Part shown: piece after piece, positions 1 to 62,550 of the stretch
Position numbering within the stretch: position 1 is the stretch's first letter
How the letters are laid out: every line of letters begins with the position of its first letter
From: Panorpa germanica
Lineage: Eukaryota; Arthropoda; Insecta; Mecoptera; Panorpidae
Direction: 5' to 3'
Assembly: GCA_963678705.1 (NCBI GenBank)
Contig: CAVMBN010000163.1
Location: forward strand, 124,001-188,000
Length of the DNA stretch: 64,000 nucleotides
Program-made: the position numbers and the translations under genes
Notes under the pieces: model-generated
Database searches by the model: none
Seen by the model: only the letters and a program-made list of their open reading frames with translations
What the model was told of the DNA's origin: nothing

Positions 1-868
1 TTAAGTCCCATCTGTCTTGCCAGAGCTTATGCATATATGCATTCATCTCTTTGGCAATATATTTGATATCGTCTCCAGACTTTTATCCTACAGCTGCATT
101 AACTTTAAATCCTCGAAATTTGTTGCATTAATTTTAAATCATCAAAATTTGATTTTTTCAGTTCTAGCGTAATTTGTACTTAAGTAAGTGCATGAGTGAT
201 ATTTAAATCTAAAAGAATTGTCTTCAATATCACCTGCACCACTTCTGTAGATACAGTTCTGCAACAACGCGTCATCGTCAATAACATAGTTCTTTGCATG
301 GAAGATCTGGAAGATTGATCCTGTAATACCATGCCGAAGCACAATACACAACCATTGGCATAAATGCCCCCTTGTATAGTATCGGCATAGTTGCCGAGTT
401 TAAGCTTCATTTCGTCCTTGTGACACGCGCAAGGTGTGTTACAAGTTTATCATTCGTTGTTACTGTATTTGTTTTGTAGATTTGTAGCTTCAAGAAACTA
501 CAGATTTTATATATAGCAGGTCGAGAACGGATTTCTAGTTGTTCTGTACTATTTGCACCGATAAGGATCACATTATCGTTGGCAAAACATACGTCTACAC
601 AACCTTTCGAGTGAGAAATACAGTTCTCGTCGAATACCATGTTCCAGAGCTCAGGCCCCATTACAGATCGCTGAGGACAACCTTTAGATAGTTGCCTTTT
701 CATGGAACGGTAATCGGTTTGTAAAATTATTGTTCGACAATAAAAATAGTTCTCCATAGCGCAGTAGACGTACCTAGAGGTTTTTGCCGGTCTAATTCTT
801 TGCAGGTCACTTGGCCACCAGACATTATCAAAGGCACACTGAATTTCTATTAATATCTCATGTACATA
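1..868 (-). pseudogene. R1-clade RT fragment, unit 0 (truncated by window)
   Basis: Read on the minus strand: motif A remnant (CAFDNVWWPSDL), palm segment with GCPQRSVMGPELWNM (like the family's GCPQGSxxGPxLWN), active site FANDN in place of the catalytic FADD/YADD, then a thumb with CRTVSTEVVQVIL. The palm frame is open at 407-757, ends at a TGA, continues in the same frame as LYKGAFMPMVVYCASAW, and the CRTVSTE part lies in another frame, so a stop and a frameshift separate palm from thumb. An internal 29-bp direct duplication lies at 96-151. The window starts before the C-terminal WQDRW motif is complete. The clade is judged from these motifs by memory. Confidence 0.85.
96..151. repeat. 29-bp tandem duplication inside each satellite unit (representative)
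   Basis: GCATTAACTTTAAATCCTCG plus AAATTTGTT, then GCATTAATTTTAAATCATCA plus AAATTTG. Seen at the same place in every unit examined, so it was present in the founder; it lies between thumb and C-terminal motif and helps break the frame. Confidence 0.9.
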
Positions 869-1540
869 CTTGTACTTATGCCTACTTACTTACCATTTGT
901 TTGTTACCATTGAATGTTCATGAACGATCAATCACTATTTCCAAGAAAACCGCATATATTGTTCACTTAGTCACTTATAACAATTATTACACTCTCTTTA
1001 TTATTTAAAACACGAATTTATATAAACTAATTTTTATGTTTTAATATTATTTATAGTTAATGTTAATCGACTTACTTGATAGTGGGCGGCAACCTTTTGT
1101 CTTCCGTATATTTGTAGTGTTTATATGAGGTCTTCCTTATATAGCTCTACAGATTTCTTAAATTTCTTAACCACTTGATGTTATAGCACTAACACTAACC
1201 TAATTATTATCACTTTTTTTGTCTATCGCACTTATTAATGTCTTATATCAAACATCAAAGTTACAATTTTGAGGTTATGTTTATAAGACCGCGTGTACGC
1301 GTAATATATATTTCGTTTTTAACACTGGTTTCCAACTGTCAAACTTTTGTAAAAACACTTTCTTTAGGGTAAATTAACACAAATTTAAAACAAACTTAAA
1401 TACTTTTCGTTTGAAAAAGTATTCATATAATTTATTTAATTTTTTTCCGTAATTAATTTCTCACTTTTAATCACTTTTTTCACCTAAAGTAGCAGGAGCC
1501 GATCACACATATAGTAGATAGGAACCACTTGTGTTGCAAA
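869..1540. repeat. Macrosatellite spacer (representative copy), no gene
   Basis: AT-rich part of the unit between two R1-like segments; the same ~670-bp sequence follows every copy. No convincing coding frame; minus-strand frames are broken in almost all copies. Recognisable sites are a perfect palindrome GTTCATGAAC (916-925), a near palindrome CGCGTGTACGCG (1290-1301, arms CGCGT/ACGCG), a telomere-like CACTAACACTAACCTAA (1187-1203) and, just inside the upper edge on the minus strand, GGTAAGTAAG resembling a splice donor. None has a demonstrable function. Confidence 0.7.
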
Positions 1541-2455
1541 GCAATATTAACGTCCTTGTAAACCAATACGTAGGTCTTCTTTTTTGTATTAAGTCCCATC
1601 TGTCTTGCCAGAGCTTATGCATATATGCATTCATCTCTTTGGCAATATATTTGATATCGTTTTTAGACTTTTATCCTACAGCAGCATTAACTTTAAATCC
1701 TCGAAATTTGTCGCATTAGTTATAAATCATCAAAATTTGATTTTTTCATTTCTAGCGTAATTTGTATTTAAGTAGGTGCATAAGTGATTTTTAAATCTAA
1801 ATGAATTGTCTTAAATATCACCTGCACCACTTCTGTAGATACAGTTCTGCAACAACGCGACATCGTCAATAATATAGTTCTTTGCATGGAAGATCTGAAA
1901 GATTGATCCTGTAATACCATGCCGAAGCACAATACACAACCATTAGCATAAATGCCCCCTTGTATAGTGTCGGCATATTTGCCGAGTTTAAGCTTTATTC
2001 CGTCCTTGTGACTCGCGCAAGGTGTGTTACAAGTTTATCATTCGTTGTTACCGTATTTGTTTCGTAGCTTTGAAGCTTCAAAAAACTACAGATTTTATCT
2101 ATAGCAGGTCCAGAACTGCTTTCTAGTTGTTCTGTACTATTTGCACTGATAAGGATCACATTATTGTTGGCAAAACATACGTTTACACAACCTTTCAAAT
2201 GAGAAACACAGTTCTCGTCGAATACCATGTTTCAGAGCTCAGGCCCCAATACGGATCGCTGAGGACAACCTCAAGATAGTTGCCTTTTCATGAAACGGTA
2301 ATCGGTTTGTAAAATTAATGTTCGACAATGAAAATAGTTCTCCATAGCGCAGTAGACGTACCTAGAGGTTTTTGCCGCTCTAATTTTTTGAAGGTCACTT
2401 GGCCACCAGACATTATTAAAGGCACACTGAATTTCTTTAAATATCTCATGTACAT
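1541..2455 (-). pseudogene. R1-clade RT fragment, unit 1
   Basis: Complete segment from motif A to the C-terminal WQDRWDLIQKGRPTYWF. Own defects: TGG to TGA in the GPELW motif (GAGCTCTGA), active site FANNN. Left-subfamily STEQLE. Confidence 0.85.
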
Positions 2456-3116
2456 ACTTGTACTTATGCCTACTTACTTACCATTTGTTTGTTACCATTG
2501 AATGTTCATGAACGATCAATCACTATTTCCAAGAAAACCGCATATATTGTTCACTTAATCACTTATAACAAATAATACACTCTCTCTATTATTTCAAACA
2601 CGCATTTATATAAACTAATTCTTATGCTTTAATAATATTTATAGTTAATGTTAATCGACACTTGATAGTGGGCGGCAACCTTTTGTCTTCCGTATATTTG
2701 TAGTGTTTATATGAGGTCTTCCTTATATAGCTCTACAGATTTCTTGAATTTCTTAACCACTTGATGTTTTAGCACTAACACTAACCTAACTATTATCACT
2801 TTTTTTGTCTATCGCACTTATTAATGTCTTATATCAAACATCAAAGTTACAATTTTGAGGTTATGTTTATAAGACCGCGTGTACGCGTAATGAAAAATGC
2901 GTTTTTAACACTGGTTTCCAACTGTTAAACTTTTGTAAAAACACTTTGTTTAGGGTAAATTAACACAAATTTAAAACAAACTTAAATACTTTTCTTTTGA
3001 AAAAGTATTCATATAATTTATTTAATTTTTTTCCGTAATTAATTTCTCACTTTTTTCACCTAAAGTAGCAGGAGCCGATCACACACATAGTAGATAGGAA
3101 CCACTTGTGTTGCAAA

Positions 3117-4032
3117 GCAATACTAACGTCCTTGTATACAAATACGTAGGTCTTCCTTTTTGTATTAAGTCCCATCTGTCTTGCCAGAGCTTATGCATAT
3201 ATGCATTCATCTCTTTGGCAATATATTTTGTATCGTCTCCAGACTTTTATCCTACAGCCGCATTAACTTTAAATCCTCGAAATTTGTCGCATTAATTTTA
3301 AATCATCAAAATTTGATTTTTTCAGTTCTAGCGTAATTTGTACTTGAGTAAGTGCATGAGTGATTTTAAAATCTAAAGGAATTGTCCCTAATATCACCTG
3401 CACCATTTCTGTAGATACAGTTCTGCAACAACGCGTCATTGTCAATAATATAGTTCTTTGCATAGAAGATCTGGAAGATTGATCCTGTAATACCATGCCG
3501 AAGCACAATACACAACCATTGGCATAAATGCCTCTTTGTATAGTGTCGGCATAGTTGCCGAGTTTAAGCTTCATTCCGTCCTTGTGACAAGCGCAAGGTG
3601 TGTTACAAGTTTTTTATTCGTTGTTACCGTATTTGTTTCGTAGCTTTGTAGCTTCAAGAAACTACTTATTTTATCTATAGCAGGTCGAAAACGGCTTTCT
3701 AGTTGTTCTGTACTATTTGCACCGATAAGGATCACATTATCGTTGGCAAAACATACGTTTACACAACCTTTCGAGTAACAAACACAGTTCTCGTCGAATA
3801 CAATGTTTCAGAGCTCAGGCCCCATTACGGATCTCTGAGGACAACCTCAAGATAGTTGCCTTTTCATGGAACGGTAATCGGTTTGTAAAATTAATGTTCG
3901 ACAATGAAAATAGTTCTCCATAGCGCAGTAGACGTACCTAGAGGTTTTTGCCGGTCTAATTCTTTGAAGGTCACTTAGCCACCATACATTATCAAAGGCA
4001 CACTGAATTTCTATAAATATCTTATGTACATA
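3117..4032 (-). pseudogene. R1-clade RT fragment, unit 2
   Basis: Complete segment. Shares the GPEL-stop (GAGCTCTGA) with unit 1; the thumb frame (3269-3574) is open with CRTVSTEMVQVILGTIPLDF. Confidence 0.85.
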
Positions 4033-4693
4033 CTTGTACTTATGCCTACTTACTTACAATATGTTTGTTACCATTGAATGTTCATGAACGATCAATCACT
4101 ATTTACAAGAAAACCGCATATATTGTTTACCTAATCACTTATATCAATTAATACACTCTCTTTATTACTTAAAACACGCATTTATATAAACTAATTCTTA
4201 TGTTTTAATATTATTTATAGTTAATGTTAATAAACTTACTTGCGGCAACCTTTTGTCTTCCGTATATTTGTAGTGTTTATATGAGGTCTTCCTTATATAG
4301 CTCTACAGATTTCTTAAATTTCTTAACCACTTGATGTTTTAGCACTAACACTAACCTAATTATTATCACTTTTTTTGTCTATCGCACTTATTAATGTCTT
4401 ATATCAAACATTAAAGTTACAATTTTGAGGTTTGTTTATAAGACCGCGTGTACCCGTAATGAAAAATTCGTTTTTAACACTGGTTTCCAACTGTCCAACT
4501 TTTGTAAAATATCTTTGTTTAGGGTAAATTAACACAAATTTAAAACAAACTTAAATACTTTTTGTTTGAAAAAGTATTCATATAATTTATTTAATTTTTT
4601 TCCATAAATAATTTCTCACTTTTAATCACTTTTTTCACCTAAAGTAACAGGATCCGATCACACACATAGTAGATAGGAACCACTTGTGTTGCA

Positions 4694-5184
4694 AAGCAAT
4701 ATTAACGTCTTTGTAAACCAATATGTAGGTCTTCCTTTTTGTATTAAGTCCCATCTGTCTTGCCAGAGCTTATGCATATATGCATTCATCTCTTTGGCAA
4801 TATAGTTGGTATTGTCTCCAGACTTTTATCCTACAGCCGCATTAACTTTAAATCCTCGAAATTTGTCGCATTAATTTTAAATCATCAAAATTAGATTTTT
4901 TCAGTTTTAGCGTAATTTGTACTTGAGTAAGCACTTAGCATGAGTGATATTTAAATCTAAAGGAATTGTCCCTAATATCACATGCACCACTTCTGTAGAT
5001 ACAGTTTTGCAACAACGCGTCATCGTAAATAACATATTTCTTTGCATGAAAGATCTGGAAGATTGATCCTGTAATACCATGCCGAAGCACAATACACAAC
5101 CATTGGCATAAATGCCCCCTTGTATAGTGTTGGCATAGTTGCCGAGTTTAAGCTTCATTCCGTCCTTGTGACACGCGCAAGGTG
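4694..5184 (-). pseudogene. R1-clade RT fragment, unit 3, cut by gypsy LTR
   Basis: Only the C-terminal and thumb part remains (thumb frame 4907-5158). Homology stops at GCGCAAGGTG, where the LTR starts with TGTCCG; the palm half is missing here and is not found on the other side of the insert. Confidence 0.85.
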
Positions 5185-5922
5185 TGTCCGAAATATTAAG
5201 TAACTAATCCTTTATTCAAAGCACGTAAAGTTTCAAATATAGTTTATATTAAAACCAAATACTAATATTCAAAGAAATGATGACGAAATGACTTTTGGAT
5301 TTAGGATAAACATAGCTAGAGTTCAAATGAGTTCATATATTTAAACAAAGACTTTTTAAGCTATATAAACCTAAGAAAAAGGGGATTCCAGAATCAGTCC
5401 ATCTTGATTAGCCCAGTTAGTACGTCGAGTCCCAGTCGAAAGGTCAGTCTAAACAGACCCCGTCAAATAGGGAGTAGCGCCCCTCAGTCGGTGGTTCGGG
5501 TAATAGTCAGTCGCTTTAATTTAAAGATTATAAAGTTACTAAAAGAATTACTTAAGAACTGTATTAAATAATTGATTGTTCAATAAAGAAAATAAGTGTA
5601 AATGAATACATTGTTTAAATTGTAAAGTACTTAGATTTAACGGTCGTGTCGCGTTAAAATAAAGTGATTGTTCAAAAGCAGAGAAAGCAGCCTGCAGAAC
5701 ACAAAAAGTAAGTAATACCTAATATATTTATGTAATATTATTAGAAGAAGTACTAAGTCCTGATAGATAAATAAGACATCCACAATTATCTCAGGTCATT
5801 CGATTTAAGGTGAGCCAGATCACTATAAAAGAACCTATCGTTAGAGAGGATTGTAGAATCGCTCTCTTAAAATAAGTAACTACCCTTATATATAGATAGT
5901 AGATATAAGGGGTAGGGTTACA
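5185..5922 (+). repeat. Gypsy 5' LTR (738 bp, TGT...ACA)
   Basis: Starts at TGTCCGAAAT where satellite homology stops and ends at ...GGGTTACA, three bases before the primer-binding site. It contains a TATA box, an initiator and AATAAA (5582-5587), defining U3, R and U5 in the expected order. No partner LTR is present for confirmation, so the left edge rests on the satellite breakpoint and the TG start. Confidence 0.75.
5362..5399 (+). promoter_or_regulatory. Gypsy LTR core promoter (TATA + TCAGT initiator)
   Basis: TATATAA at 5362-5368 followed by TCAGTC at 5394-5399. Taking the A of TCAGT (5396) as +1 puts the TATA box at -34 to -28, the classic arthropod spacing. The transcript would start with GC-richer sequence (5400-5520), unlike the AT-rich surroundings. 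Confidence 0.6.
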
Positions 5923-5925
5923 TTT

Positions 5926-5942
5926 TGGTGTCAGGTGTGGGG
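5926..5942 (+). other. Primer-binding site, tRNA-Leu type
   Basis: TGGTGTCAGGTGTGGGG follows the LTR after a 3-base spacer. TGGTGTCAG plus GTGGG matches the complement of a leucine tRNA 3' end (TGGTGTCAGAAGTGGG, recalled from memory) apart from two positions. Confidence 0.65.
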
Positions 5943-7060
5943 TGTGTTAAAAAAGAGGTCCTTTAAAAAAGGGATATTAAAATTGTGGGATATGTTAAAA
6001 AGGGGTAATAAAATTGTGGGATGTTAAAAAAGGCAGAAATTTGATTAATTGGGAAAAAGGGCACTAAGTGGAAAATTTAATTTGAGAAAATAAAGGGAAA
6101 TTTAAGTAACTGGGAAATAGAAATAAGAATAAATTTTATCAATTGGTAAAAAAGGATAAATTTGAATAATTTAGAAAAAAGGATAAAATTGTATTAATTG
6201 GAAAAAGGAATATAGTTTATTAATTGCAACTAGCAAATGCATATTAATAATTAGAAAAAGAAAAGATATCAGCATAATTAAAGAAAAGGGAAAATTTAAA
6301 TAATTAAAGAACGGGGTATTTTAAGTTTTTATAAAAGGGAATAAATTTAAGGAACTAAACAGTATATAATTTTTCTAAACCATAACTTATTAAAGTTGAA
6401 TATTTTTGTTTTAACCGTAACTAAATAAGGGATATTTTTTTAAAATAGTTTTGTAATTCACAAGTAAAGTGGCACGTTTTTTTAAAGTATAAAGTGTAGA
6501 GTCATTGTAACAGGAATAAAAAAAAAATTAATAGTTTTGTTTTATCGTAATTATATTAAGTGATTGGAACGATGAAAAAAATTTGTAACACAACTTATTT
6601 GAAATTATTTTGAATTTGTTTTTAGTTCATATGAGAAAATATTGAGTATTGCATAAAATAGTTTATTTTATTTTATTTCAATAATAATTAAAAAATAATT
6701 TTATCAATTTACAATTCGTTAATATACTTTTGTCATAAATATTGTTTGTTATAATTTTTATTTTGGTTTTTATTGTTCTAAAACAGTCTATATTAAATAT
6801 ACTAGCATTTTGTTTGACTTACTTTAAAATAATTTGTTTGTTTATTTTTATGTATATAAACAACTAGACGTTCCATTTCGTTTCCAAAAGTAAATCACAA
6901 GAGTACAGTTTGTTAAAATAACTAAGATAGTGTAAGGTATTGTTTACTTTTAAAAATAGATTATTTTTTCTCTCTTTCTTTTAACGACCAAGATTTTAAA
7001 ATATTTGTAGTAGTTTATTGAAGCTTATTTAAGGTTTTTATTTGATTGAAATGATTATTT
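5943..7060 (+). repeat. Gypsy leader, purine-rich degenerate repeats, no gene
   Basis: About 1.1 kb of extremely AT-rich, non-coding leader between primer site and gag. From 5943 to about 6360 the plus strand is purine-rich and made of loosely repeated ~30-bp blocks such as TTAATTGGAAAAAGGAATA, each with an AATTG(G) followed by AAAAAGG. After 6400 no repeats are evident. Its length is unusual for an insect gypsy element but no function can be assigned. Confidence 0.5.
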
Positions 7061-8190
7061 GATGATTATTTATTCCAAATAGTAAAAAAGACAACTAATG
7101 AAACAAACGTAGATATTGCCCCAGAAATTCCTAAATTAAAAGGATTAAATTATATACCATTCTTTGACGGTACAGGTAGCATAGCAACATTTTTAAATGC
7201 GGTGGATCAAATGGCAAAATTGTTGGATTGGACCGATAAGGTGCAATCAGTTACCGTATTTGCAAAAGTGTCGCCTGATGTAGCTGAATATCTTTAGTCT
7301 AATTCGGAGGTTCAAAGTGAGAACCGTAGTTATATGAGTATTCGTAATGCATTATTGTCTAGATATAGCAGAAAAGGGCCATCTGCTCAAAGACAAGCAG
7401 AAATTGAGTTCGGGGGTTGTAAACAAAGACATGGCGAGACTGTTTATGAATTTTCTTAAAGGTTATGGGCATTAGGGTCAAAATGTGTACCAGAAGCAAC
7501 TGATAAACAGCAAGAAAAGAAGCTTTCAGTTGAGTTACAAGTAGCCGTTTTAAAAAGGTTTAAAGAAGGGATATCGCAGAGATATTCTAAGTTTATTTGG
7601 GCCGCGGATCCCAAGAGTTTTAATAACGCCGTTGAAATTGCGGAAAGGGTAGAAACCGATGATTTAATCTCATCAAGGCAAGGCTAAGTAGCAGAGATTA
7701 CTACAGGTGGAACTAACCGAATAAACAGAGCCGACCACTATTATGTAAATCGCGCATCTCAAAATAATCAATCGTTTATGCGACCTAGCAACTCGCGTAG
7801 CGGTTCACAAAGCCGAAGGTTTAATAATAGGCAAAGAGATGGAGTAAGGTGCTACAATTGTAACAGATTAGGACATTTTTAGAGAGACGTCCCGTTAAGG
7901 ACGAAAGAGATCGATTTCAAAGAAATCGCAGTTCAAGTAGGTATGAAAACCGTAAGCAAAGTAATGACCGATTAGGGAGAGTTAGAGTCCTGCAAGTGTA
8001 TAATGATAGCCGTAGTCCTGCGAGAAATCAGCGACAAGTTACTTTCCAAAGTAATAGAAATATTCGAAGCATCGAAAATAAGCCAAGCGAAGTTGAAGAA
8101 AGAAATTTACGCGCGTCCAATAATTATGAAGATAATTTAAACGAATTGATGGCTTCACTAACTACCCGAGACGTAAAAGCCATTCAATAA
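7061..8190 (+). pseudogene. gag: Gypsy Gag (broken)
   Basis: A frame with Gag character runs from about 7061 without a clear ATG. It holds a Retrotrans_gag-type region (FFDGTGSIATFLNAVDQM and following helices), an Arg/Asn/Ser-rich tail and a CCHC zinc knuckle from 7850 (CYNCNRLGHF). In-frame stops lie at 7295 (TAG), 7457 (TAA), 7685 (TAA) and 7880 (TAG, inside the knuckle), and a 1-bp loss near 7893 removes the last knuckle cysteine from the frame. Downstream of that shift the frame stays open to the TAA ending at 8190. The protein would form the virus-like particle and bind genomic RNA. Pol begins in the -1 frame before this stop, as in many Ty3/gypsy elements. Confidence 0.8.
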
Positions 8191-11100
8191 GTAAAAAGGG
8201 TAATCTTACACCTCTGAATGTACCGGCATTTCATGATAATCAATGGTTTCCTAATTTAATAATTAATGGTCAAAATTGCAACGTTCTTATAGATAGTGGT
8301 GCAAGCGCCAGCCTACTAACTAGAGAATGTTAAAAAACGGAAAAAATTACAGAATCGCAAAATATTTTGCTAGATGCACAAAATAATAAAATACATACAC
8401 TTGATAAAAGCAAATTAAAGTTAGATTTATTTGGGGATAATGTGACTTTTGATTTTGAAATTGTAGAAAATATGGAGAATTGGACAGGGATAATTGGGTT
8501 AGACTTTCTTCGTAAATTTGGGATAATTGTAGATTTTGGAAAGGGTATTTTAATATATAGAAACGTTATTTACGACAATAATCGTAATACTGTACATGAT
8601 TTTCAGAGAGATAATTTAAATATAAATAATATGATTAGAGAAAATGTAAATCGTATCGTTAGAAAGCAAAAGCGTATTATATCAAAGTCAGGGAAAATCG
8701 TTAAAAAGAATAGAAATGGTAGAAATATAGGTTGTACTGAAACGGAAAATATTGACGAAAAAAAAAAAGTAAATAATCAGCGAATTAATAAGATAGGGCA
8801 TGACTATAAAAGTTTTGATGATTTTCTAAAATGGAAAATTAGTAGATTTCCAACAAAAGAGACGTTGTGCAAAATAAATTTGAATAAGGGAGATTTGTTT
8901 AATGAATTTAGCAAGTATGCATTGGGTCATTGTATAGCCTCAGATTTACGTATGTCACAAGGAATAGCAGTTGAATTTAAAGAAAGATTTGGTAGAGTTG
9001 AGCAGCTTTTAAAACAGAAACAGAAAAAGGGAGGATTAGCTATATTAAAAGATGAAAATCGTTTTATATATTATTTAGTAACAAAGAAGAGGAGTAACGA
9101 GAAACCCCTCTACGCAGATTTATATTTGTCAATAATTAAATTAAGGGATCATATGTTAGAAAATAAAGTGAAATTTATTGCATTACCATACATAGCATGT
9201 GGGCTAGATAAATTAGATTTTAAAATAGTGAGTAAAATGATTGAATATATATTTTCGGAATGTAAAATAAAGATAGCATTCTATGATGGCGAATCGGAAA
9301 AAGATAAAAAAACATATATGAACTGTTTAATAAATAAAAATGATAAAGATTTAAAAGATAACATTGACGGAAAGAATATTAAAGTCCAAGAACAGGTAAA
9401 GAAATGGAAGAATTTACAAACAAAGTGGTTAAAAAGAATAAACACAGCTGAGCGAGTTGAAAAAATAAACATAAATATGAATAAAAAATCTGAAACCATT
9501 CGAAAGCGAACAGACGCACATACGTGTAGTAGTAATCGGTGTAGTGTTAGGTTATTAGAGCAAGTAACTCTTCCGCCTCGATGTAAAATGAATGTTCATG
9601 CATTTCAAAAAGACATTAAGGAAGGTTATGGGATTTTTAACCCAGAATTGACCGCAGATAAAGTATTAGTAGGTAGAAGTGTAAATTTAATATGTAAGGG
9701 GCAAAAGAATATAAATATACCAATAAATACTAAGATAGGTATAATAGAGCCATATGATAACGAATATACTGAAACAGTTGAATTATTAAGAGAACACGTC
9801 CGACATAGAATTAAAAATATTTTAATTGGTGCTGTACGATCAACAGAAGCAAACACAGAGATTAAAAATATAAAATTATTTGATGAAATAAGTTATAATA
9901 ATTTAACAGCTAAAAAAGATAAAATTATACATGAAGTTACAAATCAGTGGAAGCAAAAAAGTCATAAGAATGAAGAGATAAATAAAACAAAGAGAATAAC
10001 GGAACTTTTTAGTAAAATAAAGTTAAATCATCTAAGTGCTAGAGACCAAAGTAAAATAGAAAATTTAATTTACGAATATCGCGACATATTCTTAACAGAA
10101 GGTCAAGAATTGAAAACAACCTCGATAGTTAAACATAAGATAATAATTCAAGATGTTCCTTCTATAACTAAACAACCATATAGAGTTCCACACGCGCAGT
10201 TACAAGTACTGAGAGAACAGATAGATCAAATGCTTGAAGATGGCATAGAAGAACCATCAATGTGGTCCAGTAATGTTGTTCTTGTAAATAAGAAAGCAGA
10301 AAATAGGGAAAACAAGGTTAGAGTTTGCATAGATTACAGGGGTCTTAACGCAATAACAAAAAGAGATTACTTTCCATTACCACACTTAGTAGACACTCTT
10401 GATAAATTAGGCAAAGCAAGTTTATTTACCAAATTAGATTTAGCATCGGGATTTTGGCAAATTGAAATGGACGAAAAATCTAAAGAATTAACAGCATTTT
10501 CAACACCTGATTTACACCTTCAATTTAATGTTATGCCGTTTGGGTTATTATCAGCTCCTGCTACATTTCAGAGACTTATGTATGCAGTGTTAGCAGGTTT
10601 AACCGGAGTACATTGTTTAGTTTACCTAGATGATATTATAATATTTAGTAACGTTGATGTAGATTCGCATATCCAGAGAATTAAAGAGGTTTTCGATCGC
10701 TTGAGAGAAGCAAGTTTGACATTGAAGCCTAGCAAATGTGAATTTATGAATAAAGAAATGCAATATCTTGGTCATATTATTTCTAGTGATGGTGTAAAGG
10801 CAGATCCAGAAAAAACAGAAGTAATTAGAAACTATCCGCGTCCGAAAACAGTTAAACAAATCCGATCTTTTATAGGGTTAGCTTCATTTTATAGACGATT
10901 TATAAAGAATTTTTTAGAAATATCATCAAGCCTAACAAAACTGACTTAAAGCAAAAATGAGACATTTATTTGGGGACCTGAACAAGAGAAAAGTTTTGAA
11001 GCATTAAAAAACGCGTTATGTTTTGAGCCAGTTTTAGCTTACCCAGATTTTAGTCAAGAATTTATATTAGGTACAGATGCATCAGGAATCGCATTAGGCG

Positions 11101-11657
11101 CAATCCTAAGCCAAGTTCAGGATGGAGTAGAACGTCCTGTCGCATACGCTTCTCGTAAATTAAATAAATGTAAGAAAAATTACTCAACCACAGAAAGGGA
11201 ATGTTTAGCGATTTTATGGAGTTTATCACATTTTCGTACGTATTTATATGGTAAGAAATTTAAGATTCAAACAGATCACCGATCATTATGTTGGTTAATG
11301 ACTATGAAAGATCCAATGAAAAGTAAATTAGCACGGTGGGCTTTAACTTTAGCAGATTACGATTTTGATATTATTTATAGGCCAGGGGTAAAACACGGTA
11401 ATGTTGATGCATTAAGTAAAATAGAAACAGAAAGTATTGCAGCCGTAGCAGCTGAAGAAGTTCCATATTGGGATTGGTGTCAAATTAAAAATGAACAAGC
11501 TAGTGATTCCGATATTAAACAATTAATAACGCAAACTAAGTATGGGGAAAAAAATGATTATTATTTAGATGATAGGGGTATACTGTATAAGAAAAGTAAT
11601 GAAAAAACAGATAGAAATGACTATGTAGTAGCACCAACACGAATGGTACCGAATATA
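8170..11657 (+). pseudogene. pol: Gypsy Pol: protease - macrodomain - RT - RNase H (two stops, truncated)
   Basis: One frame, -1 relative to the end of Gag, with only two nonsense codons: TAA at 8331 in the protease and TAA at 10947 between RT and RNase H; 8334-10946 is open. Domains in order: aspartic protease with LIDSGAS at 8286 and IIGLDFL (~8490); a basic, Asn/Lys-rich stretch; macrodomain (8868-9287); Lys-rich linker; the pre-RT segment VTLPPR...GRSVNLIC (~9567-9750); RT with FTKLDLASGFWQIEM, MPFGLLSAPATF and catalytic YLDD (10623-10634); RNase H (about 11060-11420) with TDAS, RECLA, TDHRSL and NVDALSK. The frame ends soon after at VVAPTRMVPNI, where integrase should begin but sequence of another element starts. 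RT residues look intact. Inactive as it stands because of the stops and lost integrase. Confidence 0.92.
8868..9287 (+). other. TARG1/OARD1-type macrodomain inside gypsy Pol
   Basis: Codons for about 140 residues (positions 168-307 counted from the Met at 8367). The segment follows the whole length of animal ADP-ribose hydrolase TARG1 (OARD1/C6orf130): KGDLF start, GHCIASDLRMSQGIAVEF (ADP-ribose-binding loop), RFGRVEQLL, FIYYLVTKKRSNEKPLY, IALPYIACGLDKLDF and a final KIKIAFYD strand. The TARG1 catalytic Lys (K84 in human numbering) corresponds to K240 (codon 9084) and the catalytic Asp (D125) to D281 (codon 9207); both are present. The GCGLD loop reads ACGLD. No stop or frameshift touches the domain. 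The family removes ADP-ribose from acidic residues of proteins, and relatives such as DarG act on ADP-ribosylated DNA. A role for the retroelement is inference. Confidence 0.9.
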
Positions 11658-11696
11658 TAAATTATATCGTTATTATTTCCTCCTTAAACAAAATTA

Positions 11697-12008
11697 AGTG
11701 CCTCAGCGTCTTCAACACCATATTCTCTAGAAAAATTGCAAAACGTTCGATCAAGACTTTTGCAGCGTACGTCCTCAGTTGGTTTACTAAATAATAAACG
11801 TTTTGGTAAATATTTCAAAAATCTTATTCCAAATTATATGACTTTCAATAAAAATCCAAAAGATTACATTTATTGGGATAATCCAAACGAATTAGTTGAT
11901 AGACTAAGATTACTAATTAGTTCAAAAAGGGCTGGCAATACATCACATGACAATGAAATTATTTTAATAGTTGAAGAGTTAAAAGAAGCTAATATTATTA
12001 TTATATAA
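11697..12008 (+). pseudogene. Small protein with DYIYWDNPNELVDRLRLL motif
   Basis: Open from about 11688 (after a TAA) to the TAA at 12006 with no ATG at the front; the first coding-like residues read LSASASSTPYSLEKLQ. The C-terminal half holds YIYWDNPNELVDRLRLLI, followed by SHDNEIILIVEELKEAN. I associate this combination from memory with small proteins encoded next to PolB genes in mobile elements, function unknown. Predicted helical and soluble. It is the first gene of the PolB relic after the gypsy junction; the missing start suggests that the gypsy join cut its 5' end. Confidence 0.5.
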
Positions 12009-12064
12009 ATACTTAAACACATTCCCTTTTTTTTCATTAATTTATAACTACTCATGTAAGTAAC

Positions 12065-12262
12065 ATGACTATTAACAAATTTGGAGTACACATACATAAG
12101 AAAAAAATTACTCGGCACGAAACAGTATCAAAAAATGATTTAATTATTATAGATAGACGTTTAAAAGCTGCAGAGAAATATATTAATGATGCTTATATTA
12201 ATAACTTTCTAAACATTATTGAAGTAAATAAAAAAAATTGCAACATTAATTACAGAATTTAA
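12065..12262 (+). CDS. Short basic ORF of unknown function
   Basis: Sixty-five codons from ATG to TAA; Lys/Asn/Ile-rich with DRRLKAAEKYINDAYINNFLNIIEVNKK in two helical stretches. Not recognised. It lies between the DYIYWDNPNELVD protein and the chromodomain fragment on the same strand, and may be a frame-broken part of a longer protein that ended in the chromodomain. Confidence 0.35.
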   Translation: MTINKFGVHIHKKKITRHETVSKNDLIIIDRRLKAAEKYINDAYINNFLNIIEVNKKNCNINYRI

Positions 12263-12297
12263 AACAAAACATAGTTTAGATATTAGTTCTTGATAAA

Positions 12298-12335
12298 TTT
12301 CTCAACTAGATATATCTGTATATCTAGTTGAGAAA
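12298..12335. repeat. Perfect 17-bp inverted repeat, 4-nt loop
   Basis: TTTCTCAACTAGATATA, loop TCTG, then TATATCTAGTTGAGAAA: arms are exact reverse complements. The right arm is coding (YLVEK of the chromodomain), so the left arm is probably an inverted templated copy rather than a regulatory hairpin. Confidence 0.9.
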
Positions 12336-12427
12336 GTTTTACAGAAAAAAGGAAAAAAAGTTTTTGTAAAGTGGTTAGGTTTAGATAAATCTCATAACAG
12401 TTGGATAGATGCTAAAAATATTGTATA
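12319..12427 (+). pseudogene. Chromodomain fragment
   Basis: Frame ending at the TAA 12425-12427 reads YLVEKVLQKKGKKVFVKW followed by LGLDKSHNSWIDAKNIV, the canonical chromodomain pattern (Y.VEK...G...VKW.G....SWI...N). Such domains sit at the C-terminus of many Polinton and Ty3/gypsy integrases; here no integrase core precedes it. A stop and the left arm of a perfect hairpin lie immediately upstream. Confidence 0.65.
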
Positions 12428-12429
12428 AC

Positions 12430-12492
12430 ATTTTAAATAAATAAATCTACTGGTTATTATAAATATGTATTTATTTTACAATAAAAATATAC
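12430..12492. terminator. Convergent gene ends with poly(A)-like signals
   Basis: AAATAAATAAA follows the chromodomain stop on the plus strand, and TTTATT/TTTTAT strings on the plus strand give AATAAA-like signals for the minus-strand polymerase gene. The base composition is so AT-rich that the signals are only weakly supported. Confidence 0.35.
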
Positions 12493-15400
12493 TTATAACA
12501 ATAAATCGCTATCACTTAAATTATCGAAACCTCAAGGCAAAGTATCTGTACTGTTTTTTATAAAACACCGTTTATCATAAAAAGGACTTAAAGCAATTTT
12601 TGTTTGTTTAATGGAGTACACATTATGCAATTTTGAAACTATTCCTCTCTGAGTACAATTTTTTTTATTAAAAGTTCTCAAACAATTTTCATAATCTTCA
12701 AAAGAAATATGGTTTCTTACTACACTTGTCTTTATTCCTTTTATTTTTTTTATAATGTCATTATTATTAACCTTCATTGTATACATTTTCGATCTTAGTC
12801 CTATAAAGTGAGTCATAATTTTACCGTTATTTTCATCCTTCATTAAACCCAATACCTTTTTATTTACACGGGGAATATTATATTGATTGTTTTCTTTATA
12901 ATCACTTGTATCAAACTTACTTATATCGCGTTTTATAGTTTCATAAATATCTGATGTAATAATTTCATAAATTAACGAGTCAGTATCAATATATAATAAC
13001 TTTAAATTATTATTAAAAAATTCTTTTTGCATATAATTATAATGGAAATCATACATTACTGTTTTAGATAAATCTAATATTAAAAAGCCAACATATATAG
13101 GTTTATTAAATGTAATATTAGGTTTTAAAAGTTCAATAGCTACAACATTTTTATTAAAAATTGTTCAGCTATGAAAATTAGGTCGTGCTATTAAACTTTT
13201 TACTCCATATCGACCACCCCAATTTGTTTTTAATTTTATATCACGATGTTTTCTAACATTTTCCATTGTCTTACCAAATACACTATTATTCATTAATTTA
13301 TACAAGTTTTTTTCAAAATCATTGGTAGCCATTTTTCTTTTTTCTGTATTTAAATCGATATAGTTTTTTAGCCACGGTGATTGACTAAATTTTAAAACTC
13401 GATGTATTTTTGATACTTGCATTCCTAAATGTATACATTGCTTTAAATTACTATAATGAATTATATATTTCTCCTTATCATATAAAGTAGTTAAAAGTTT
13501 TTTATGTTTACTTCCTGGTGCAATACAATGCTCAGGACAAAGCGGTTAATCTTTATGGAGATTATGTAAACTTTGAGGATAAGTTAAATCTACTTCTAAA
13601 ATGTTACCAGTATTGCTAGTTTCTGACAAATTGCATATAGTATTACTTATTTCCAATATTTCCTGGTTGTTTAACCATTTAATATTTCCATATGGTAGGA
13701 ATTGAGACATTGCATGACCGTATAAGTTATTAACATCGAAATACATTAGATATTTAGAAGGTAATTCAGGTTTATACTTGTCAGTCATATATTTGTTATT
13801 GGCCTCTGCATATCTGTTTGAACATTGACTTATACCACCTCTGATACCCTTCTCTATAAATAGCCACATATTTATATCAGTAAACAATTCAAGTTTAATT
13901 TTTGTAATTTTAGACATAGAATCCCATGCTAAGCTAGGAGCAGAAACATAATGCACTGGATCTAATTTATACTTGTCTAAACAATTATCTCGAAAATTTT
14001 CAAGTATGTCACAAAGTAATAACACATCGGTTTTTAAGTACAAATCGGAATATTTACCAAGTGTTTTGATATGAAATGTATTCCATACATCTTGTGTTTT
14101 TTTAATAAATTAAAAAAATTATCCTGAGGTGGTAAAGCTGTCTCATTTAACTTTTCCCAGGAATTTATATAATCATAAGGAAATACACTTTTTTACTTAA
14201 CATACTAAATTTTTCATTGCTTAACATGTTAAATTCTGATTTTTAAATTTTAAGTTTATTATTTGGTAAATATGATGCCAAAATATTTAAAGAACTAGCC
14301 ATAAATCGATATGAATCAATAAATCCTAATGAAATATTAGTTCCATACACATATTTCGTAAATGATATATATTTTTATTTATTAATTGATAGCAAAGAAG
14401 TTCTTCCACTTATTCCAGTAGCTAAATCAATTATTATAAAATGTGAATCATAAGATGATAAATTGTGAAAAATTATTGGAATCACATAACTTTTATTATA
14501 ATTTAAATTACATTCATTATGAGCTGGTCCTCTATAATTTCCTGTTAAATGACAATGATCTCGAACACGGTCTTGTTGGAACGGTTTTTCACATATATGA
14601 CAATTTATTGCATTTAAATATTCCATCTTTTGTTGAGCCGTCAATGTTTTCATTAATAATACATTTTTTATTATATCCTCAACATTATAAGCAATCTCTT
14701 TTAATTCATTTACAAACAACTGAACGCAATCTTCACCACGATAACTATTATAATAAGATTTAGAGTCATCATATGAAAATTTTACATAATATCCAACGCT
14801 ATGTGCAATATGTGTTTGATATACCCCCTTGGTTTCAATATTTGTCACATTACTATCCAATATACTTTCAAAGTCTGCATAAATAACACATGCATTTCTA
14901 ATGTTTCTCTTAAAGTTTTTAAACTCAAGTATATTAGAATTTTCAACTGGCATTATCGGTTTAACTGGTCTCAGTCCTAATCTAACACAGTCTTGTAAAT
15001 GTTCCTTAAACTTGCACTCATCTCTAAAGAAATGTAAACATCGATCACATATAAATTTCTTACAATTTGTTTTTGAAAGTAGATTACTAACAAGTCTTGA
15101 TAAATTCTTTATCCAACAAAAATGAAATTTTATTTTATTGTCGCATTCCTCATTATTACTTTCAACAACATCTTGTTCATCCTCTTCTTCTTCTTCTTCT
15201 TCTTCAAATTCATAATCACTTTGAATCATTAATAAATGAATATGTTTACTTTCATATATTTTACTAACATATACAGGAATAGTTACAAATGTTTTCTTGC
15301 TCTTTTTTAAAATATACACATTAATTGATATATTATTTAGTTTTTCAAATTTTAAAACTTGTGATAACGTCATTGGAAATTTAATACCATTTAAATTAAA

Positions 15401-16261
15401 ACAATTTATATATTTCTTATAAGATGATACTCTGTCGCCATGAATTTTTGATGGATAAAGTGCTGATAATACTGCCCATACAAAACATTTATCATCTTCA
15501 TTCTGAACATTTATTACAGCCTTTTTTCGTCTTATTTCAACTAGTAAGTCAATAAATGATGAACAATAAAATGGAACAAATTGATTTATATTTACTATCA
15601 TATTTACTATTTTACATAGAGCCCATCCACTTTGATTTTCTTGAAAAGTTTCTAAATATTTTAATACAACATCAATAACATTTTCCTTATACCAATGTTT
15701 TAATTCTGTTGATACAAAAATTTCATTATTTTTAGTATTAAAATAATTGTATTCAAATATATGTTCTTCTTCTTTAGCTGATGGTAAAACAAATTCACCA
15801 CAAAAAGTTACATTAACTTTTAAAGCACTATGTTTTTTAAGAGCATTTTTAATTCTAGATGCAAACATATAAAATGCATCATTTAAAAATTGTAATGGAT
15901 CAATGTGACTTAAATTAATTAACACTCCTGTTCTAACACGTCCTTTAAATGATGAATTTATTTCCTGCCATTTAATTCGATCACTACGTTTTGAAGTATT
16001 TATAGTTCCTCTTCCAATTTTTTCTTTATTTTCTAACAATGTTTGAAAATATTTTAATACACTTATATTGCTTTCAACACTTCGTTTATATCCAATTGAA
16101 TAAGTATTTTTATTATTATTTTTTAATAACTTATTTAATAATCTTATATTAATTTTATTATAATCACACCACTTTTTTCACTGAATACTTGAATAATTTG
16201 AACTATTTAAGTGTTCAATAATTTTTCTCATATGCTTTATAATTTTACAACCGCTATCCAT
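12493..16261 (-). pseudogene. polB: Protein-primed-type family B DNA polymerase (broken)
   Basis: About 1,250 codons from the ATG at 16261 (MDSGCKIIKHMRK) to TAA at 12493. N-terminal region with a K/N-rich lead, a segment with NEDDKCFVWAVLSALYP, and a poly-Glu tract (CTT repeat near 15180-15205). Exonuclease motif I YADFESIL (~14870), a Cys/His insert CHICEKPF...VRDHCHLTGNYRG (~14510-14605), Exo II FHNLSSYDSHFI (~14460), Exo III YLKTDVLLLCDI (~14030). Polymerase motif A MYFDVNNLYG (~13735), motif [10 protein letters not shown] (~13290), motif C YIDTDSL (~12985), then KKIKGIKTSVV. Catalytic residues look intact. Breaks: TGA 16178, TAA 14375 and 14243, frameshifts near 14190 and 14100, TAA 13546, TGA 13165, TGA 12532. 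The motif set fits DNA_pol_B_2 enzymes of Polintons and related elements, which replicate the element by protein priming. Confidence 0.9.
15180..15206. repeat. CTT/GAA microsatellite coding poly-Glu
   Basis: A run of CTT triplets on the plus strand encodes an uninterrupted Glu tract in the minus-strand PolB N-terminal region. Length-variable in principle; no frame break here. Confidence 0.85.
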
Positions 16262-17387: not shown

Positions 17388-17638
17388 CGCGTGTACGCGT
17401 AATGAAAAATTCGTTTCTAACTCTGGTTTCCAACTGTCTAACTTTTGTAAAAACACTTTGTTTAGGGTAAATTAAAACAAATTTAAAACAAACTTAAATA
17501 CTTTTCGTTTGAAAAAGTATTCATATAATTTATTTAATTTTTTTCCGTAATTAATTTCTCACTTTTAATCACTTTTTTCACCTAAAGTAGCAGGAGCCGA
17601 TCACACACATAGTAAATAATAACCACTTGTGTTGAAAA

Positions 17639-18555
17639 GCAATATTAACGTCCTTGTAAACCAATACGTAGGTCTTCCTTTTTGTATTAAGTCCAATCTG
17701 TCTTGCCAGAGCTTATGCATATATGCATTCATCTCTTTGGCAATATATTTGGTATCGTCTCCAGTCTTTTATCCTACAGCCGCATTTACTTTAAATCCTC
17801 GAATTTTGTCGCATTAATTTTAAATCATCAAAATTTGATTATTTCAGTTCTAGCGTAATTTGTAATTGAGTAAGTGCATGAGTGATATTTAAATCTAAAG
17901 GAATTGTCCCCAATATCACCTGCACCACTTCTGTAGATACAGTTCTGCAACAACGGGTCATCGTCAATAACATAGTTCTTTGCATGGAAGATCTGGAAGA
18001 TTGATCCTGTAATACCATGCCAAAGCACAATAAAAAACCATTGGCATAAATGCCCCCTTGTATAGTATCGGCATTGTTGCTGAGTTTAAGCTTCATTCCG
18101 TCCTTGTGACACGCGCAAGGTGTGTTACAAGTTTATCATTTTTTGTTACCGTATTTGTTTTGTAGCTTTGTAGTTTTAAGAAACTACATGTTTTATCTAT
18201 AGCAGGTCGAGAACGGCTTTTTAGTTGTTCTGCACTATTTGCACCGATAAGGATTACATTATCGTTGGCAAAACATACGTTTACACAACCTTTCGAGTGA
18301 GAAACTTAGTTCTCGTCGAATACCATGTTTCAGAGCTCAGGCCCCATTACGGATCGCTGAGGACAACCTTTAGATAGTTGCCTTTTCATGGAACGGTAAT
18401 CGGTTTGTAAAATTAATGTTCGACAATGAAAATAGTTCTTTAAAGCGCAGTAGACTTACCTAGAGGTTTTTGCCGGTCTAATTCTTTGAAGGTCACTTGG
18501 CCACCAGACATTATCAAAGACACACTGAATTTCTATAAATATCTAAAGTACATAC
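17639..18555 (-). pseudogene. R1-clade RT fragment, unit 4
   Basis: Complete segment with two palm stops (GAGCTCTGA at GPEL and GAACTAAGT after DEN). Thumb frame open at 17839-18096. Confidence 0.85.
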
Positions 18556-19226
18556 TTGTACTTATGCCTACTTACTTACCATTTGTTTGTTACTATTTAA
18601 TGTTCATGAACGATCAATCACTATTTCCAAGAAAACCGCACATATTGTTCACTTAATCACTTATAACAATTAATACACTCTCTTTATTATTTAAAACACG
18701 CATTTATATAAACTAATTGTTATGTTTTAATATTATTTATAGTTAATGTTAATCGACTTACTTGATAGTGGGCGGCAACCTTTTGTTTTTCGTATATTTG
18801 TAGTGTTTATAGGAGGTCTTCCTTATATAGCTCTACAGATTTCTTGAATTTCTTAACCACTTGATGTTTTAGCACTAACACTAACATAATTATTATCACT
18901 TTTTTTGTCTATCGCACTTATTATTGTCTTATATCAAACATCAAAGTTACAATTTTGAGGTTAAGTTTATAAGACCGCGTGTACGCGTATTGAAAAATTC
19001 GTTTTTCACACTGGTTTCCAACTGTCAAACTTTTGTAAAAACACTTTGTTTAGGGTAAATTAACACAAATTTAAAACAAACTTAAATACTTTTCGTTTGA
19101 AAAAGTATTTATATAATTTATTTAATTTTGTTCCGTAATTAATTTCTCACTTTTAATTACTTTTTTCACCTAAAGTAGCAGGAGCCGATCACACACATAG
19201 TAGATAGGAACCACTTGTGTTGCAAA

Positions 19227-20136
19227 GCAATATTAACGTCTTTGTAAACCAATACGTAAGTCTTCCTTTTTGTATTAAGTCCCATCTGTCTTGCCAGAGC
19301 TTATGCATATATGCATTCATCTCTTTGGCAATATATTTGGTATCGTCTCCAGACTGGTATCCTACAGCCGCATTAACTTTAAATCCTCGAAATTTGTCAC
19401 ATTATTTTAAATCATCAAAATTTGTTTTTTTCAGTTCTAGCGTAATTTGTACTTGAGTAAGTGCATGAGTGATATTTAAATCTAAAGGAATTGTCCTCAA
19501 TATCATCTGCACCACTTCTGTAGATACAGTTCTGCAACAACGCGTCATCGTCATAGTTCTTTGCATGGAAGATCTGGAAGATTGATCCTGTAATACTATG
19601 CCGAAGCACAATACAAAACCATTGGCATAAATGCCCCCTTGTATAGTATCGGCATAGTTGCCGAGTTTAAGCTTCATTCCGTCCTTGTGACACGCGCAAG
19701 GTGTGTTACAAGTTTATCATTTTTTGTTACCGTATTTGTTTTGTAGCTTTGTAGTTTTAAGAAACTACAGATTTTATCTATAGCAGGTCGAGAACGGCTT
19801 TCTAGTTGTTCTGTACTATTTGCACCGATAAGGATTACATTATCGTTGGCAAAACATACGTTTACACAACTTTTCGAGTGAGAAACTTAGTTCTCGTCGA
19901 ATACCATGTTTCAGAGCTCAGGCCCCATTACGGATCGCTGAGGACAACCTTTAGATAGTTGCCTTTTCATGGAACGGTAATCGGTTTGTAAAATTAATGT
20001 TCGACAATGAAAATAGTTCTCCATAGCGCAGTAGACGTACTTAGAGGTTTTTGCCGGTCTAATTCTTTAAAGGTCACTTGGCCACCAGACATTATCAAAG
20101 ACACACTGAATTTCTATAAATATCTCAAGTACATAC
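19227..20136 (-). pseudogene. R1-clade RT fragment, unit 5
   Basis: Shares both palm stops with unit 4 and has a private 6-bp deletion in the thumb near 19552. The pair 4/5 is therefore a local duplication younger than units 0-3. Confidence 0.85.
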
Positions 20137-20324: not shown

Positions 20325-21134
20325 TGGTTGAGTTTGGACCTATTTATCTATATAAGCTTGAAATTGGCTTATTTGCGATGTTGACGGTATCCAATTTCTC
20401 AGATTGATGGATTGCTTCTAACTCCTTTGATAGCGATGAATTGCGCCAAAGTTTCTCGAAGGACCTTTTTGTTATTAAATAATTAATAACAATTTTTTAT
20501 TTTCTTTAAATGGTTTAATCCGTGTCGAAGGATCAAATGGTTAATCCGTGTCGAAGGATCAAATGATTACACAAGCCAAAGTTTGTAAGAAAATGCAGCG
20601 AAATGCAATAATTTTACATAAAAACATTTATTATACGAATACACTTGACGAATTACAATAATTGAAAATTAAATGAATAACTGTATATATCAATGATACT
20701 GTGATACAATTCACTATTAAATTTTATTATGATTATTAAACTGTTAAACGTTGGAGTTGATAATTTTAGATGTTTACTGTTCTAGATACTAGTTAATAAT
20801 TAAAGATATTTAAGATGCTTATTGTATGAAGTTTGAGTTAATAATGATTATTTTAATAGTGTTTTATCAGTACATTGATAGAAAGAATGCATTTGTCAGG
20901 CCAGCTGTGTGCCCTTAAAACTGGTTTGTAAAATAAAATACAATGGCAGAGTAACAGTAATAATAACTTTGTTAGTTAATTCAATAACAAAGAAAAAAAT
21001 AAATTATTTGGTTAAACAAAAGAATTATTACAAAACTTAAGATCTAAAAATATACAAAATTATATTCTAATGAAATACATTAAGAACGTGAAATATCTAT
21101 ATACAAATATAGATTGTGTATGCGTTCTTAACCA
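20325..21134 (-). repeat. BEL/Pao 3' LTR (810 bp)
   Basis: Plus strand begins TGGTTGAGTTTGG and ends CGTTCTTAACCA, giving short imperfect inverted ends (TGGTT/AACCA). Differs from the other LTR only at four noticed positions (for example GAAATTGG versus GAGATTGG near the start and CCTTAAAACTGG versus CCTTGAAACTGG). Confidence 0.95.
20511..20563. repeat. 26-27 bp tandem duplication in BEL LTR (left)
   Basis: Two adjacent copies of TGGTT(T)AATCCGTGTCGAAGG plus ATCAAA. On the minus strand each reads TTTGATCCTTCGACACGG, resembling the CTTCGAGCCGGA motif next to the primer site. The same duplication is at 25612-25664 in the other LTR. Confidence 0.9.
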
Positions 21135-58624: not shown

Positions 58625-58820
58625 GAAAACATCAATATATAAATTAAGTTTATTTTTTAATAAAAACTCTATTCACATCACTAAACCTAATCGGTTAATA
58701 AATTTACTAAAATATTAAATCAACAACAATTATATAAACATAAAGAAAAATAAAATATATAAATAAATCGAAAAACAAGACATCAGATATAAAAATTAAT
58801 CATTAATTAAAACAGTTAAA

Positions 58821-61800: not shown

Positions 61801-62550
61801 ACAAATTCTTATAATACAGAAATAACAGCAATAATGAAATTATTAGAAATAATACAAAACACTGACAATAAAAATATAATAATCTTTACTGATTCTCGTA
61901 GTATTTGTGTATCTTTAAATAACAATAAATTAAAAAACAATAACAATAACAAAATATGTTCAATTAAAGAATATCTTTTAAAAATGGAAAAAAGTGATAT
62001 CAATGTTAAACTCATTTGGATTCCTGGACATGTAGGCATAAAAGGGAATGAAATGGCTGACAAACTTGCCAAAGAAGCTTGTGTAGATGGAGAAATAATC
62101 GAAATAAATTGGTCAATAAATGATTCCAAAAAAATAATTAAAGAAAATTGTATGGCAGATTGGCAGAATATATATAATGAGAAAAGTCAAAGTACTGGAA
62201 AGTTGTTTTTTGCAGCGAATCAAATAATTCCAACAACCACATGGTTTAATAAAAATCATTCACGGAGATATATTTCAACAAATTGTCGAATGAAATCTGG
62301 GCATTCTAGATGTCCAGCTCATCTATACAAAATAAAGATAAAAGACACACCAAATTGTAGATGTGGAGAAGAAGGTTCTTTGGACCATATAATTCTAGGG
62401 TGTCATCTTTTAACATCAAAAATTGATAGACTTTTAAATGATTTATGTAATGTAGCACAGTTCCCAGTCAACATGTCCTGTTTAATGAAAAGTGAAGCAA
62501 CGGCGGAAATAGTAACTATCTTTGTGATAGAAAATAATATAGAAGTGTAA
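58821..62550 (+). pseudogene. LINE ORF2: APE endonuclease - RT - RNase H (five stops, one frameshift)
   Basis: About 1,240 codons from ATG 58821. Endonuclease (58821-59520): QWNCRG, LSETF, GGVAILIH, AGDFNATN, SILDLTLVS, GSDHYPI. RT: STGFDRINYKMIQNL (~60165), FRPITLLS, FAFRKTRSMQHN, AAFIDIEAAYDNV (motif A), HGIPQGSILSPLLFNIY (motif B), YADDMVIY (motif C, 60823), FLGIFFD. RNase H (61690-62090): FTDGSF, YNTEITAI, FTDSRS, IPGHVGIKGNEMADKLA, all four acidic residues present. C-terminal Cys/His segment CPAHLY...CRCGEEGSLDHIILGC. Breaks: TAA 59661 and 59862, frameshift in an A run near 60040, TAG 60280, TGA 60367, TAA 60871; 61126-62550 is open. The EN nicks the target and the RT primes on it. Confidence 0.92.

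Follow-up and report, generated by a model that had tools for sequence, protein, structure and literature searches.

A TARG1-Type Macrodomain within the Pol of Ty3/Gypsy Retroelements of Panorpa germanica

Structure of the Element

We analyzed a stretch of 64,000 nucleotides (the window) from the genome of Panorpa germanica (Insecta, Mecoptera; contig CAVMBN010000163.1, positions 124,001–188,000). It contains a Ty3/gypsy retroelement in which a macrodomain of the TARG1/OARD1 type is encoded between the protease and the reverse transcriptase (RT), in one open frame with the latter. This window copy represents family A, one of seven macrodomain-bearing families (A–G) found in the genome; it is itself broken and sits within a nest of satellite DNA and other transposons. 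Its parts and the layouts of the families are given in Table 1.

Table 1. Parts of the window copy (window coordinates) and Pol layouts of the seven families. LTR, long terminal repeat; PR, protease; macro, macrodomain; RH, RNase H; INT, integrase; ORF, open reading frame; aa, amino acids; ratio, observed/expected nonsynonymous changes; p, change-count test.
Feature	Position	Strand	Remarks
Probable 5' LTR	5190..5927	+	Satellite stops at 5187; similarity to other family A copies begins at 5190; end set by eye
Broken gag frame	7055..8137	+	Five internal stops
Retroviral-type aspartic protease	8253..8560	+	One stop (8331-8333); equivalent piece of copy L112 matches RVP and gag-asp_proteas
Open pol stretch, 860 aa	8367..10949	+	Protease remnant, macrodomain, linker, conserved region, RT
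TARG1/OARD1-type macrodomain	8871..9284	+	
Lys84 codon	9084..9086	+	Human TARG1 numbering
Asp125 codon	9207..9209	+	Human TARG1 numbering
Linker 3' of macrodomain	9300..9548	+	No selection signal: ratio 0.92-0.93, p 0.45-0.46
Region upstream of RT	9549..9770	+	No trusted Pfam match; moderate constraint: ratio 0.58, p 0.02
RT	10200..10790	+	RVT_1, E 3.7e-37 (860-aa ORF as query)
RNase H and stretch after it	10950..11657	+	RT_RNaseH, E 5.1e-41; element truncated here; similarity to other family A copies ends at ~11658
Family A (L112)			gag / PR-macro-RT-RH-INT
Family D (L124)			gag / PR-macro-RT-RH-INT
Family B (L115)			gag / PR-RT-RH-macro-INT
Family C (L122)			RT-RH-macro-INT + env remnant (Baculo_F fragment, E 4.8e-8)
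Family E (L127)	L127:1845-7736		RT-RH-macro-INT + env ORF (Baculo_F, E 6.8e-61)
Family G	C1:4861966-4864260		RT, macro, integrase in that order; 1,652-aa frame
Family F	C77		RT then macro; 1,392-aa frame

Identity and Catalytic Residues of the Macrodomain

The macrodomain of family A shared 47% identity with human TARG1, with a root-mean-square deviation (rmsd) of 0.9 in the structure search, and both catalytic residues, Lys84 and Asp125, were present. TARG1 was the best PDB match for the macrodomains of all seven families (E-values for the others: B, 3.6e-42; C, 1.7e-23; D, 4.2e-15; E, 6.6e-21; F, 6.2e-18; G, 2.8e-13). The catalytic pair was complete in five of the seven families (A, B, C, E, and F) and, within family A, in all 33 stop-free matches (30 places). 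It is nearly certain that the domain is a TARG1-type macrodomain of the animal kind.

The initial annotation, made from the sequence of the window, had proposed a Ty3/gypsy Pol with a TARG1-type macrodomain retaining both catalytic residues, and this is now backed by sequence and structure searches. The kinship with DarG proposed at the same time proved only distant: the NCBIfam DarG model scored 38.9 bits against a cut-off of 250, and its best-matching stretch covered positions 26–158 of 338.

Families and Pol Layouts

The genome assembly (G000, 464 Mb) was searched with each search scoring its best 150 candidates, so diverged domains could be missed. With the macrodomain as the query, these were the best 150 of 589 candidates. 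Family A, taken as matches with an identity of 84% or more to the window copy, accounted for 57 of them (56 places; counted by eye); nine of the 57 lay in open frames of 1571–1638 aa, and several copies with long intact frames were on different contigs. One copy (C179:379040) was 100% identical to the window copy at the protein level, and three copies on contig C1 (L083–L085) share the foreign DNA that adjoins the window copy; some window-like copies are probably segmental duplicates, not transpositions. Other families formed groups at about 39–53%, 33%, and 27–30% identity among the best 150 matches, and additional ones emerged from further searches of the genome.

The seven families were counted by Pfam searches of separate pieces and by the relative places of the RT, macrodomain, and integrase matches. 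The Ty3/gypsy order of protease, RT, RNase H, and integrase was confirmed piecewise in one copy each of families A, B, and D (L112, L115, and L124). The domain occupies two positions in Pol: before RT in families A and D, and between RT/RNase H and integrase in families B, C, E, and G. Families F and G were read as match coordinates and macrodomain DNA alone (L132 and L131, respectively). No integrase was seen in family F; its domain probably occupies the second position, judging from an RT-to-macrodomain distance of 1323 nt versus 1359 nt in B and 1353 nt in C.

Families C and E, in which Pfam revealed no protease, are gypsy elements of the errantivirus type with env sequence (Baculo_F), and in them too the TARG1 domain is found between RNase H and integrase. 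In family A, an env gene was sought downstream of pol, and no ORF of at least 200 aa was found within the 0.9 kb examined. A zf-CCHC domain was present in the gag of families A (L112, E 2.1e-6) and D and was not found in the gag of family B. In all four copies examined (L112, L115, L118, L124), pol lies in the −1 frame relative to gag, with an overlap of 13–139 nt and a slippery-type heptamer.

Recent Transposition

Among the best 150 macrodomain matches, 18 belonged to family B copies with a 1389-aa frame (counted by eye). Six B copies with both LTRs had Kimura two-parameter distances between them of 0, 0, 0.0031, 0.0031, 0.0015, and 0.0397. In five of the six, the LTRs end in TG..CA with ATAT flanking the element on either side; in the sixth (L116), the boundaries set by the repeat finder were slightly different. 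Judged by these distances, family B includes very young insertions. Some B copies stand head-to-tail at a spacing of 6.26–6.36 kb (G000:C5:16555248, 16561609, and 16567970; C197:31388 and 37643), as if joined via shared LTRs.

Four copies of family D had LTR distances of 0.004–0.009 over partial LTRs, and no LTR pair was found in family A within the stretches examined. Of the best 150 integrase matches, 143 came from family G; their identity to E was uniformly 46%, almost all had one E-value, and most lay in the same 1652-aa frame. This uniformity points to a recent burst of the family. The macrodomain was matched at only some of these places.

Selection on the Domain

The family A set comprised 34 loci at 31 places, three pairs being identical copies (L098/L111, L109/L112, and L100/L114). 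Only stop-free sequences covering at least 90% of the piece were used: 33 of 34 for the macrodomain, 18 of 19 for RT, 28 of 33 for both the linker and the region before RT, and 15 of 28 for the protease piece. Median dN/dS (ratio of nonsynonymous to synonymous substitution rates) among pairs with dS above 0.05 was 0.31 for the macrodomain (275 pairs), 0.08 for RT (70 pairs), 0.23 for the protease (74 pairs), 0.38 for the region before RT (298 pairs), and 0.74 for the linker (263 pairs).

Since the pairs are not independent, each change was also counted once against a real copy and compared with random placement; both reference sequences were one and the same copy. The macrodomain had 51 nonsynonymous and 28 synonymous changes, with about 61.6 nonsynonymous expected (p ~0.003), and the linker had 47 and 13, with 47.7 expected; p was 0.0002 for RT, and the values for the linker and the region before RT are given in Table 1. 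These counts indicate that the macrodomain is constrained and the adjoining linker is not, and that both evolve faster than RT. At the level of sequence, the domain of family A is thus under purifying selection. In family B, dN/dS was also low, with 0.37 for the macrodomain (25 of 28 pairs) and 0.08 for RT (14 of 21 pairs), for eight of nine loci with L121 left out. The RT of family D gave 0.54 from three pairs; families D and C had too few changes to judge.

Origin and Number of Captures

In the phylogenetic tree, a branch with support of 98/99 separated 17 sequences from viral contigs (IMG/VR) together with protein P0005 from all element domains and other TARG1s; the viral-contig sequences formed one group in two further trees (95/97 and 98/99). 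Families A and B were closest by path to insect and human TARG1 in three trees. An origin from viral contigs, taken as mostly phage, or from DarG was therefore rejected, because the trees separate the viral-contig sequences and place A and B among animal TARG1s. Families C, E, and F formed one clade (100/99.8) with a variable placement, C/E(/F) being next to the viral-contig sequences in one tree (77/71) and with P0001 in another (89/86); their best PDB match was still TARG1. The grouping of A with D was weak (80/67 in one tree, 8/0 in another).

Monophyly of the element domains had p-values in the approximately unbiased (AU) test of 0.285 and 0.149 for families A–E and 0.311 for A, B, C, E, and F, with D and G omitted as long branches. 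A single capture thus fits the data, being neither rejected nor demonstrated, and several captures fit as well. Given two Pol positions, the domain must have been inserted at least twice or have moved once. Identities of RT-RNase H and of the macrodomain disagree, with 57–59% versus 30–32% between A and D and 47–48% versus 43–49% between A and B; this discordance is compatible with either separate captures or rapid decay in D.

A candidate exon of a host TARG1-type gene was located apart from the elements (C19:723869-724054); it encodes 62 residues and has an AG acceptor before it and a GT donor after it. It was nearest to a metagenome protein and beetle TARG1s (39/59 to P0018 and 38/59 to Callosobruchus) and less like the elements (27–28/62 to B and 26/61 to A). 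The genome may accordingly have a TARG1-type host gene of its own.

Protein searches for the same layout in other species returned 26 proteins in all. The search with family B gave 20, including those of Schistocerca, Anabrus, Cinara, and several beetles. In the 17 of these that were scanned, Macro was the sole Pfam family above the cut-off, except for a PAM2 motif in P0016, and neither they nor P0002 had an RT or integrase match by Pfam; the search with family B admitted proteins of 348–1107 aa and another search proteins of 473–1505 aa, and the negative result holds for these lengths. The viral-contig search for single proteins yielded nothing.

Two fusions were also observed. Protein P0025 (703 aa, 'lgn' source) has a TARG1 macrodomain at its C-terminus, and its N-terminal part resembles by eye the C-terminal part of ORF2 of a long interspersed nuclear element (LINE); a PDB search with that part gave nothing significant. 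In P0025, TARG1 may have become associated independently with a non-LTR retrotransposon. In P0001 (MMETSP, 537 aa; a protist transcript), a NADAR-type domain (ribofla_fusion, E 2.6e-23) is fused to a TARG1-like macrodomain.

DNA Surrounding the Element

Window positions 1-5187, 17388-19706, and 26845-56998 are occupied by an array with a unit of ~1586 bp and a 110-aa ORF on the minus strand. The ORF is RT-like by eye, and a Pfam search gave no match; the satellite was perhaps born from a LINE. On the minus strand at 11663-16039, a DNA polymerase B remnant (DNA_pol_B_2, E 3.9e-11; Endonuclease_7, E 6.4e-6), which we read as Maverick/Polinton-like, adjoins the truncated gypsy element. The piece at their junction was found again next to the three C1 copies, probably through segmental duplication. 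A BEL/Pao retroelement remnant with a 1010-aa open frame (Peptidase_A17, E 2.8e-21; DUF5641) lies at 21060-24092 on the minus strand, and a LINE with endonuclease and RT, read as Jockey-like, is inserted into the satellite array at 57704-62550 on the plus strand.

Discussion

The domain resembles human TARG1/OARD1 (C6orf130) in fold, identity, and both catalytic residues; the human protein is cellular and stand-alone, whereas here we have a domain of a retroelement Pol, known from sequence. Insect TARG1 proteins (Schistocerca, Callosobruchus, Anoplophora, Cinara, and others) belong to the same subfamily, with 46–53% identity to family B, and differ in having long parts without a trusted Pfam match and no RT or integrase match (17 of 20 scanned). 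Arthropod viruses also seem to have acquired TARG1: VP8 of Kadipiro virus, the best viral structure match, has the macro fold with 46% identity and an rmsd of 0.9, and a protein of an Armadillidium (isopod) iridescent virus has it with 42% identity over 96 columns. The macrodomain of alphavirus nsP3 shares the fold and is far less alike (8–12% identity). None of these three viruses is a retroelement.

The dUTPases of retroviruses and retrotransposons lie in or beside Pol at varied positions; some lentiviruses, for instance, have theirs between RNase H and integrase. They are likewise host-type accessory enzymes in or beside Pol, with an unrelated fold and reaction. Epsilon-like endogenous retroviruses of fish possess ORFs for macrodomains (Basta et al. 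2009, cited in the available text of PMC4977317). They too are retroelements with an acquired macrodomain; however, theirs are additional ORFs in vertebrate elements, of a subfamily unstated in that text, whereas the domain described here is of the TARG1 type and lies within the Pol of Ty3/gypsy elements at two positions. An orchid Ty3/gypsy element carries an AlkB-type N6-methyladenosine (m6A) RNA demethylase, active in vitro according to the available text of PMC9289625; this is again a gypsy element with an acquired host eraser, differing in the enzyme, its placement in a separate ORF, and the plant host. In the literature searched, judged by listings with most subscription papers outside them, no macrodomain, of TARG1 or any other type, was described within the Pol of a Ty3/gypsy element, and an earlier description is possible. 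Captured erasers have precedents among retroelements; what is new, to the extent of these searches, is this enzyme class for Ty3/gypsy, inside Pol, at two positions, and in seven families of one genome.

On balance, we slightly favour the explanation that the domain is a functional accessory part of Ty3/gypsy Pol, a particle-borne de-ADP-ribosylase opposing the host. The TARG1-type ADP-ribosyl hydrolase would be translated within Gag-Pol, most likely carried into the particle, and presumably released by the protease. Host ADP-ribosyltransferases would modify acidic residues of Gag or Pol, or the ends of the element RNA or cDNA, and the domain would strip the ADP-ribose so that reverse transcription and integration could proceed. 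We infer this chain, from enzymatic activity and packaging to the substrate and the host defence opposed. In its favour are the TARG1 matches of all seven families, the catalytic pair kept in five of them, the many family A copies with long open frames, the Pol domain order, the young insertions of family B, the low dN/dS of the domain in A and B with purifying selection in A, and the candidate host gene.

Indirect support that ADP-ribosylation touches insect retroelements comes from Drosophila: according to the available text of PMC7712786, loss of PARP-1 mostly increases the expression of mobile elements, a good number of which are gypsy-type. Of the eight elements with a significant change in parp-1 mutants, five are up, and ten further elements, nine of the gypsy type, rise below the bounds of that paper.

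Several observations weigh against this explanation. In the same Drosophila mutants, expression of the other three of the eight elements falls, and the authors allow that PARP-1 may act indirectly (PMC7712786, available text). In the one copy of family D examined, Lys is replaced by Arg and Asp by Cys, and the loop carrying the GIAV motif in family A is gone; in the one copy of family G examined, Lys is present, Asp is replaced by Ser, and the HC and GIAV motifs are changed. The loss of Asp in G, the family with the most rows among the matches listed, argues against calling the enzyme simply indispensable. Moreover, some RT relatives lack a detected domain (by eye, among the matches listed): none of 15 RT matches at 66–67% identity to E has a macrodomain match within 4 kb, although their RTs are nearer to E than that of C (64%) and some lie in 1356-aa frames, and of 31 RT matches at 54–60% to A (three E matches omitted), 13 have an appropriately placed macrodomain match and 18 lack one. 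If the match lists are right, the domain was gained or lost more than once, and together with the catalytic loss in D and G this means that it is not indispensable to all elements. Finally, the faster evolution of the macrodomain than of RT in A and B fits an arms race and also looser constraint.

The same facts feed the strongest alternative, that Pol retains the fold as a spacer or folding module, with catalysis dispensable and the catalytic residues surviving only in recent captures. In D and G, long open frames indeed still encode a TARG1-related domain whose catalytic pair is not intact, G prevails among the best integrase matches listed, and macrodomain dN/dS is about four times that of RT. 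However, the domain is under purifying selection beside a neutral linker, and Lys84 and Asp125 persist in every stop-free family A sequence and in five families, despite a similarity in the domain of no more than 29–49% among A, B, and the C/E/F group. We consider such a passenger role rather unlikely.

Less probable still is that the domain reads ADP-ribose, binding its poly- or mono-form at DNA breaks or active chromatin and steering the integrase as the chromodomains of chromoviruses do. Macrodomains can bind ADP-ribose without hydrolyzing it, and the domain is encoded between RT/RNase H and integrase in four of seven families (B, C, E, and G; probably also F). Yet in A and D it precedes RT, far from the integrase, D and G have altered parts of the pocket as well, and the ATAT flanks of five of the six measured B copies speak for a simple sequence preference.

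A one-off chimera or an assembly artefact, which the initial annotation had itself named as the outcomes that would undo it, or a host gene misread as part of an element is hardly credible. The broken state of the window copy and its surroundings of satellite and other transposons would fit such a reading, but the same domain order was seen in many other copies, family A occupies 56 places with several long intact frames on different contigs, further families exist, and the candidate host exon, bounded by splice sites, lies at a locus of its own.

Returning to the enzymatic explanation, we put forward tentatively, as a broader possibility that we consider somewhat doubtful, that TARG1 has been repeatedly captured or moved by insect Ty3/gypsy elements and env-bearing endogenous retroviruses as a Pol-embedded counter-defence in two slots; this would imply that ADP-ribosylation is a standing defence of insect cells against retroelements and that lineages such as D and G later ceased to depend on the enzyme. 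RNA viruses and phages are known to employ erasers of ADP-ribosylation as counter-defence. TARG1 in the polyprotein of a recently active retrotransposon would make ADP-ribosylation of particles or cDNA a directly testable insect defence, and the genome of P. germanica offers a natural set for this, with relatives that have the domain, lack it, or carry altered catalytic residues.
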